A stretch of 64,000 nucleotides of DNA from Bacillota bacterium (GTDB taxonomy: Bacteria; Bacillota; Dethiobacteria; DTU022; UBA8154). The notes beneath the pieces were generated by a model that saw only the letters and a list, made by a program, of their open reading frames with translations, ran no database searches and was not told where the DNA came from. Positions 55,348-57,506 of this stretch are shown piece after piece (position 1 is the stretch's first letter; every line of letters begins with the position of its first letter). The stretch is taken from positions 1 to 64,000 of the forward strand of contig JAAYFF010000046.1 in NCBI GenBank assembly GCA_012728375.1, written 5' to 3'. Both the position numbers and the translations under genes were made by a program.

Positions 55348-55510
55348 AAAAAAGCAGACCCCAACAAATCTTTATCGGTCTTTCCCTTCCTCCCCGCTCC
55401 CGGCTCTACTTTCACGGACACATCTTGGTAATGTCCCTTATTTTCGTAGCCGGCAGCTTTTTTGAGGAATCTTCGGGATTAACCTTAGGACTTCTCGGGG
55501 TCTGCCTTGC
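55348..55510 (-). ncRNA. Putative structured ncRNA (~163 nt, 6S-like size), class unknown
   Basis: Closing stem GCAGACCCC/GGGGTCTGC followed by U6 on minus strand; nested helices; own promoter. Confidence 0.65.
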
Positions 55511-55516
55511 AAAAAT

Positions 55517-55545
55517 ATTCTATATTATTATCTCCAATTTGTCAA
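55517..55545 (-). promoter_or_regulatory. Promoter TTGACA-17-TAGAAT for minus-strand ncRNA
   Basis: -35 at 55540-55545, -10 at 55517-55522 (minus strand). Confidence 0.7.
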
Positions 55546-55663: not shown

Positions 55664-56650
55664 ATGGCTGTTATTACCATATCTCGGCAATTTGGCAGCG
55701 GCGGAGAAGAGGTAGCTCGTTTAGTAGCTGAAAAAAAGCGTTATCTTCTGGTGAATAAGGCAATGATCCTCGAAAATTTACGTTCTTATGGGATCAGCGA
55801 TGATTTTGACCAATTTGATGAAAAAAATATTAGAAATATTGATCGTGCCGAATACCGGGAACTGGAAAAAAAACGACGTCATTACCTGAAAACAATACAC
55901 AATTTTATTTATGATCTGGCCATTAGGGAAAACCTGGTCATATTGGGAAGGGGAGGCCAGGTTTTATTTAAAGATTTTCCACCGGCACTGCATGTAAAAA
56001 TTATTGCCCCTTTAAAATGTAGATTGAGGACGGTGTGCAAATCCTACGGTCTGGATGAAGCTGTCGCAGCACGCCTTATTGAAGAAAAGGACCGGGATCG
56101 ACAGGACTACCTGCGCCAGATTTTTGGGTATGACTGGCTCGATTTGGATCTTTATCACCTGGTAATCAATACGGGAATATTCGGATTAGAAGAAGCAGCG
56201 CTCCTGATAGTAAATGCCGCTAAAGTTAAAGAAGAAACGGGCAATGTTTTAAATTCATTGCCCGATGCGAAAATCCAGGAACAAAATTTTACAGTAAGTC
56301 AGGTTCAGGATGCTAAGGGCAATGCACCCTCTTTTGCCCATCCAAGTGAGGAAGAATTTGCCAAAATGTTGGATTTTTATCAGATTAAATGGCTTTATGA
56401 GCCGAAAACATTTCCGTTGGAGTGGGATAGCGAGGGTAATATTACTGTTGCCTTTGCGCCGGATTTTTACCTTCCGGAACAGGATCTATACGTAGAGCTG
56501 ACCACCCAGAAACAGAAGCTGGTCTGGAAAAAAAACAAAAAGATTCGGCGCTTAAGGGAGATTTACCCCCATGTTAAAATTAAAATAATTTACGGCCGGG
56601 ATTACAGGGGATTGCTCCAAAAATACGGTATTGAAGAGAAAGGGGAGTAG
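55664..56650 (+). CDS. Cytidylate kinase-like protein with C-terminal PD-(D/E)XK-nuclease-like region
   Basis: ITISRQFGSGGEEVARLVAE N-term; C-term WLYEPKTFPLEWDS..FAPDFYLPEQDLYVELTTQ; ATG 55664 after AGGAGGA. Confidence 0.8.
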   Translation: MAVITISRQFGSGGEEVARLVAEKKRYLLVNKAMILENLRSYGISDDFDQFDEKNIRNIDRAEYRELEKKRRHYLKTIHNFIYDLAIRENLVILGRGGQVLFKDFPPALHVKIIAPLKCRLRTVCKSYGLDEAVAARLIEEKDRDRQDYLRQIFGYDWLDLDLYHLVINTGIFGLEEAALLIVNAAKVKEETGNVLNSLPDAKIQEQNFTVSQVQDAKGNAPSFAHPSEEEFAKMLDFYQIKWLYEPKTFPLEWDSEGNITVAFAPDFYLPEQDLYVELTTQKQKLVWKKNKKIRRLREIYPHVKIKIIYGRDYRGLLQKYGIEEKGE

Positions 56651-56659
56651 CGCTTAGGC

Positions 56660-57241
56660 ATGTCGGGCGAAGGTGAACACCAACTGGAAATATTGTTAAC
56701 AAAAGAGCAGATTCAGCAGAGGGTTGCTGAGCTGGGCGAGAAAATTTCGCGGGATTATGCTGGGGTTGAGGAATTAATTATGGTGGCTGTCCTCAGGGGA
56801 AGCGTTTATTTTGCAGTTGACCTCAGCCGCAGGTTGAGCATTCCTTTTACCCTGGATTTTATCGGGATTTCCAGCTATGGGGCAACTGCTTACCCGCTGG
56901 GAGTTGTCCGCATTACCAAAGATTTGGACTTTAGCATTACCCATAAACATGTTTTTTTAGTGGAGGACATTGTGGATACGGGTTTGACCCTGAATTACCT
57001 AATTAAAAATTTGAAAACGAGAAATCCACAAAGCCTGCGCGTTTGTACTTTTCTCGATCTTCCAGGGAGGCGTATAGTCGATGTTCCTGTAGACTACCGG
57101 GGATTTGAAATACCTGATTGTTTTGTTGTAGGGTACGGATTGGACTATCAGGAACGTTACCGTAACCTGGAAGAAGTGGCGGTGCTGAAAAAACGAATTA
57201 GACAACAAAAAACACAGATTCCAACAGACTTTTCAGGGTAA
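56660..57241 (+). CDS. hpt: Hypoxanthine phosphoribosyltransferase
   Basis: VAVLRGSVYFAVDLSRRL, VEDIVDTGLTLNYL. Confidence 0.93.
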   Translation: MSGEGEHQLEILLTKEQIQQRVAELGEKISRDYAGVEELIMVAVLRGSVYFAVDLSRRLSIPFTLDFIGISSYGATAYPLGVVRITKDLDFSITHKHVFLVEDIVDTGLTLNYLIKNLKTRNPQSLRVCTFLDLPGRRIVDVPVDYRGFEIPDCFVVGYGLDYQERYRNLEEVAVLKKRIRQQKTQIPTDFSG

Positions 57242-57471
57242 TCTCCATCACTCTCGTGATACAGCTTTTCGCGGTGTCCTTTATGCAGGTATCTCAGGGC
57301 AATTTTCCCCTCAAATCCTATCCGGAACACCGGGTTTCCCGCTGTCCGGCTCCCAGACCTCACTTTGCATCCCTGCATTGAAAACCACCGGTGATTTTCT
57401 TCCGTCAGGGCACTTTTTCTTTGAGTTGGAGCCGGTGAGATATACCTTCTTATGCCTCTCGGAATCTGTGT
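57206..57471 (-). ncRNA. Putative highly structured ncRNA (~266 nt), class unknown
   Basis: 11-bp closing stem ACACAGATTCC/GGAATCTGTGT followed by U6; at least five further complementary helices; own promoter. Confidence 0.75.
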
Positions 57472-57477
57472 AACTGT

Positions 57478-57506
57478 ATTATCTCATAGTATGAATATTC
57501 TGTCAA
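57478..57506 (-). promoter_or_regulatory. Promoter TTGACA-17-GATAAT for minus-strand ncRNA
   Basis: -35 at 57501-57506, -10 at 57478-57483 (minus strand). Confidence 0.75.

Follow-up and report, generated by a model that had tools for sequence, protein, structure and literature searches.

The window, by which we mean the whole 64,000-nucleotide stretch of DNA analysed here, carries two copies of a predicted structured RNA on its minus strand, and these flank a pair of plus-strand genes, C0 and hpt (also labelled C1) (Table 1). The genome holds two confident copies only, namely copy 1 and copy 2. Copy 2, which converges on hpt, covers the last 30 bases of this gene; it may be the first minus-strand RNA candidate put forward in an earlier, sequence-only reading of this DNA, in which copy 1 was the second.

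Table 1 Features of the two RNA copies and their partner genes (positions are those of the window).
Feature	Position	Strand	Basis or detail
RNA copy 1, short unbranched form	55348..55511	minus	fold z -8.2; R2 match; homologs
Sigma-A type promoter of RNA copy 1, TTGACA-17-TAGAAT	55517..55545	minus	TTGACA at 55545-55540, TAGAAT at 55522-55517
P1 closing stem, 5' strand GCAGACCCCGA	55495..55505	minus	next base, G at 55494, belongs to the G.G mismatch
P1 closing stem, 3' strand UUGGGGUCUGC	55354..55364	minus	followed by the U-tract, terminator-like end
C0, Cytidylate_kin2 and T7-endonuclease-I-like C-terminal domain; putative RNA partner	55664..56650	plus	PF13189, E 3e-36; profile search
C1 (hpt), hypoxanthine phosphoribosyltransferase	56660..57241	plus	TIGR01203, 202.7 bits, above cut-off
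RNA copy 2, long form	57212-57469	minus	R2 30.2 bits, E 1.8e-5; outside the training set; fold z -7.6
Promoter of RNA copy 2, TTGACA-17-GATAAT	57478..57506	minus	sequence; promoter conservation

For copy 1, the sequence-only reading had described a minus-strand TTGACA-17-TAGAAT promoter ahead of a stretch that folds from end to end and is followed by U6, and our analysis reproduced both the promoter and the fold, with the helices as listed there. The promoter matched 11 of the 12 consensus bases with a 17-nt spacer, and the transcript would span from approximately 55511 to the U-tract at 55348. The 165-nt strand was predicted to form a single rod with a minimum free energy (MFE) of -75.1 kcal/mol, compared with -43.0 +/- 3.9 for its shuffles (z = -8.24; 0/200). 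This rod consists of a basal stem (GCAGACCCC/GGGGUCUGC), further helices (GGU(U)/(G)ACC, CCC/GGG, UUCCUC/GAGGAA and CCGGCU/AGCCGG) and an apical stem (GGACA(U)/(G)UGUCC), with U6 after the rod. The opposite strand folded far worse (z = -4.0), indicating that the transcript derives from the minus strand. With the covariance model R2, which had copy 1 in its training set, the conserved piece of copy 1 was 55352-55505 (140.9 bits). The string GGUCCUAAGGU (window 55481-55498, minus strand), also present in several relatives, resembles what we take to be a conserved 23S rRNA string, possibly by chance.

We collected homologs by blastn in 60 relatives, by a pattern scan and with R2, whose training set contained many members of the window's family. 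The blastn homologs had conserved ends and a variable middle, and the carriers recovered by the pattern scan were labelled Dethiobacter sp., Syntrophomonadaceae and Bacillota MAGs. R2 located the RNA in 19 of the 23 genomes of the window's family and, beyond the family, returned one to four lower-scoring matches per genome for many members of the order and a few of the class. A covariance model of the basal stem only (R1) is unable to span the long insert and was discarded for that reason; those of its extra matches that we examined were ordinary hairpins or unrelated sequence. Several chance matches in coding sequence, obtained by a two-mismatch pattern search, were also discarded on inspection.

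The 73 copies extracted from the order and class revealed near-invariant ends (5' CAGGUUCCGAGAG and 3' AGGUCUGUUGGRACCUG), and the sense strand was the more stable one in all 73, by a mean difference of 31.5 kcal/mol. Of 56 copies, 54 had an exact TTGACA upstream at a conserved position, and 55 agreed with the promoter consensus at 10 or more of its 12 bases immediately ahead of P1, a level reached by approximately 3% of shuffles. Members of the class are probably strongly transcribed. The earlier proposal of a stand-alone minus-strand ncRNA gene was borne out by its own promoter, a terminator-like end, family-wide conservation and the occurrence of related forms in the class at large and outside it, and copy 1 is almost certainly a member of an RNA class that is conserved across many Bacillota and had no prior description.

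The copies share a closing structure in which the 11-bp P1 and a G.G mismatch lead into a 5-bp helix with many G.U pairs, then into an asymmetric, purine-rich loop (CUAA/GAUAAA for the window's family) and one more helix. Among 11 close relatives, 97% of the cells in this structure pair and 8 of its pairs differ at both positions between sequences, whereas slid controls were paired at 59% or less. In the subtype of approximately 312 nt (20 copies), compensatory change was found in 31 of the 78 consensus pairs. In most close relatives there is an additional arm, and the fold is a three-way junction of roughly 250-360 nt; copy 1 is a short form without this arm. The class as a whole ranges from about 150 to 360 nt, and many genomes carry divergent paralogs, two to several in each.

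Several further features were noted in single families. In family-f1 copies, the facing strands of arm B (CGAAAAUAAG / GUGAAAGUAG; window approximately 55410-55450, minus strand) are partly invariant and, by their sequence, look like a loop-E (AGUA/GAA) motif. In family f3 (e.g., L117-L127 and L133-L167), the -10 extension differs by subtype, being TGCTATTATA before copies of approximately 312 nt and GATCAATAAT before those of approximately 290 nt, and the string TTATTATGTAC is conserved 3' of the closing stem in several copies of both subtypes. Family f37 has mini-forms of approximately 150 nt (L286/L300 in genome G089 and L301 in G203), with an operator-like palindrome, GTATACCGGTATAC, just upstream of their RNA promoters.

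The sequence-only reading had compared copy 1 with 6S RNA (RF00013), which it resembles in length (approximately 160 nt), in having its own promoter and, for copy 1 alone, in its rod-like shape. RF00013 gave no match in the window, in the relatives scanned or in the element even at E <= 10, and the 6S gene of this genome lies on another contig (G000:C72; 98.7 bits, E 1e-20). None of the remaining Rfam families matched the element; no family reached its gathering threshold within the whole window, and a scan of 901 bases around the element at E <= 10 yielded two chance eukaryotic matches, both outside the element. Furthermore, the 6S fold is a single long hairpin opened by a large bubble at its centre, whereas most relatives here form a three-way junction, so that the single rod described earlier holds for copy 1 and fails for most of its relatives. 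Since the 6S gene is elsewhere and no Rfam family matches here, we rejected the 6S identity of copy 1, and a second 6S RNA binding sigma-A RNA polymerase is extremely improbable in spite of the comparable length and rod-like form. Of the two points that the reading had joined as a refutation of its proposal, a better-scoring 6S gene elsewhere in the genome is true, and a lack of conservation of the element is false.

Dictyoglomi-1 (RF01703) was the only named class with any resemblance to the RNA, and this sequence likeness is weak, so that we do not claim membership. Two relatives gave weak full-length matches (model positions 1-236; 23.5 bits, E 0.041 and 16.4 bits, E 2.3), and in these alignments they may share with the model a similar basal order of elements (CAGG/CCUG stem, one unpaired G per strand, GGUC helix, purine loop) and a branched top; the better of the two nevertheless stands at 23.5 bits against a gathering score of 150 bits. 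RF01703 matched neither copy 1 (E <= 10) nor 20 other members, and its matches in 300 genomes of the phylum all lacked the shared motifs and were rejected. Dictyoglomi-1 was described as a candidate ncRNA of unknown function, from Dictyoglomi only (Weinberg et al. 2010, PMC2864571). If it were homologous, the RNA reported here would greatly enlarge that named class, and its module with C0 and hpt would still be new.

The OLE, raiA, GOLLD and ROOL RNAs are likewise conserved, complex bacterial ncRNAs whose function is largely unsettled, and OLE RNA forms an RNP and occurs in extremophilic Bacillota (PMC11332333, PMC12286853). They differ from the class described here in size and partners, and the present class has divergent paralogs within a genome; their Rfam models gave no match, either in the window at gathering thresholds or in the element and scanned relatives at lax thresholds. 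A search of open-licence papers returned no description of the RNA class or of the RNA-C0-hpt module. We call both new because neither an Rfam family nor a searched open-licence paper describes the RNA or its three-part neighbourhood.

We then considered the genes beside the RNA. C0 was found beside 23 of the 41 RNA loci taken with flanks, nearly always with C1 (families f1, f3, f6 and f7), and the C0-C1 gene order is conserved. Over 399 genomes of the phylum, which were a partial sampling with the window's class searched more deeply, R2 gave weak matches in two further families. These weak matches led to a distinct subfamily of approximately 340 nt (AAGCUCCAAGGAAUUCCUAAGAUGG ... GAUAAAGGUUCGUUGGAGCUU) in families f17, f21 and f98, where C0 adjoins the RNA in 10 of 15 loci, and hpt does too where the contig reaches, while most other neighbours differ. 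The C-terminal domain of C0 was present in 38 of the 399 genomes, and the RNA or a clear relative, including forms that R2 missed, adjoins C0-C1 in 25 of these 38, from 11 families, a count that carries some judgement because several RNAs were recognised by reading intergenic sequence. Conversely, C0 is present in 17 of the 18 genomes whose RNA came from sequence search, versus 38 of 399 overall (nominal P 1e-18, which ignores shared ancestry and is inflated by it). The RNA class is probably linked in function to C0-hpt.

The placement of the RNA around C0-hpt varies among genomes, being upstream and divergent, downstream and convergent, in tandem, or codirectional between C0 and hpt; the last arrangement was seen in f37, where G089 has one mini-form between the two genes and another after hpt. 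This variation bears on whether the RNA could regulate the C0-hpt operon locally, as an antisense or 3'-end RNA, a role that the overlap of copy 2 with the end of hpt and the divergence of copy 1 from C0 might suggest. Such a regulator is quite unlikely, given that orientation and position are not constant, that many copies lie elsewhere, and that the conserved sequence is the closing stem rather than a stretch complementary to the operon.

Copies away from C0-hpt raise a different alternative, in which the RNA acts in trans as a structured regulator or ribozyme, does not bind C0, and owes its linkage to C0-hpt to an old chromosomal neighbourhood. Some copies of the subtype of approximately 290 nt adjoin proC-proB-proA; in genome G342 (f21), four copies of the distant subfamily (L254-L257) lie on separate contigs, none of them beside C0, with C0-hpt on a contig other than theirs; and genome G457 has the RNA and no C0 match. 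These paralogs elsewhere, together with the complex fold and its many conserved purine loops, favour a trans-acting RNA. We nonetheless regard it as rather unlikely, since the adjacency persists in 11 families although other neighbours have been replaced, and since the same two genes recur with differing RNA arrangements. Thirteen of the 38 genomes that encode the C-terminal domain of C0 showed no RNA next to C0; G342 among them has copies elsewhere, and some contigs end at this point. In families f68, f83, f99, f117 and f129, the RNA may be absent or present in unrecognised forms. One locus that carries C0 and an RNA of the window's family (L079, JAGVAS010000115.1) is labelled Desulfovibrio sp. 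and is probably a mislabelled MAG.

To our knowledge, it is rare for an RNA class to be conserved in many families while also having promoters of its own, multiple paralogs and one constant partner among the protein genes. The understood examples of such classes (6S, SRP RNA and tmRNA) are core machines or global regulators. With C0 named as candidate protein partner, the function of the present class becomes directly testable by binding and deletion.

C0 comprises a Cytidylate_kin2 domain (residues 3-170) and a C-terminal domain (residues about 226-328). A profile of the latter, searched against the PDB, matched T7 endonuclease I in all four hits (3cae at E 1.2e-4, 1m0d, 2pfj and 1fzr), with an alignment over 89 columns that covers the nuclease core and retains the PD and E motifs. 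T7 endonuclease I is a four-way-junction resolvase. Unlike this enzyme, C0 lacks the catalytic Lys (Thr occupies the Lys position of the E-x-K motif in 7 of 7 aligned sequences), is fused to a nucleotide-kinase-like domain and is encoded beside hpt; its C-terminal domain is a fold relative and probably not an active resolvase. An AlphaFold model of C0 built with ten close sequences was too poor for use (mean pLDDT 42), and PADLOC returned no convincing defence assignment, with C0 at E 0.003 to an unnamed candidate family.

The resolvase fold and the two copies flanking the C0-hpt operon in the window might point to a DNA element, that is, a cruciform or hairpin that a resolvase-like protein would recognise, such as a mobile or recombination site. 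We judge this very unlikely in view of the strong strand asymmetry, the conserved G.U pairs, the consensus promoter ahead of nearly every copy, the loss of the catalytic Lys from C0, and the nature of the flanking copies, which are diverged paralogs and not identical repeats.

The best explanation, which we hold to be somewhat better than evenly supported, is that the RNA is a subunit of an RNP with C0 that is tied to purine nucleotides; the association with C0-hpt was observed, and binding and function are what we infer. In this proposal the RNA would be the RNA subunit of a stable RNP, and the C-terminal domain of C0, with its junction-resolvase fold and lost catalytic lysine, would hold the RNA rather than cut it. 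The link from the particle to the purine nucleotide level, or to salvage, would run through the C0 kinase-like domain and the hpt product. Paralogs differing in their internal arms would form particles that serve different roles, each gripped by the same conserved end. Taken separately, direct binding of the RNA by C0, which is suggested by the domain similarity and gene adjacency, has about an even chance, and a nucleotide-related role of the RNA is a tentative idea that we put clearly lower. Since the third arm is missing from copy 1, binding would have to depend on something besides a branched junction. If C0 does bind the RNA, a DNA junction-resolvase fold would have been converted to an RNA-binding module. 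It is an evenly balanced proposition that a hitherto unrecognised RNP system, made up of the RNA (often as several divergent copies), C0 with its kinase-like and probably inactive resolvase domains, and hpt, extends across much of the phylum, its origin perhaps reaching back to the split from Dictyoglomota. In the C0 homologs of f17, f21 and f98 (L243-L253), the nucleotide-binding motif reads GSLG in place of GSGGE, which suggests that phosphotransfer has possibly been lost there, with the C-terminal domain still conserved.
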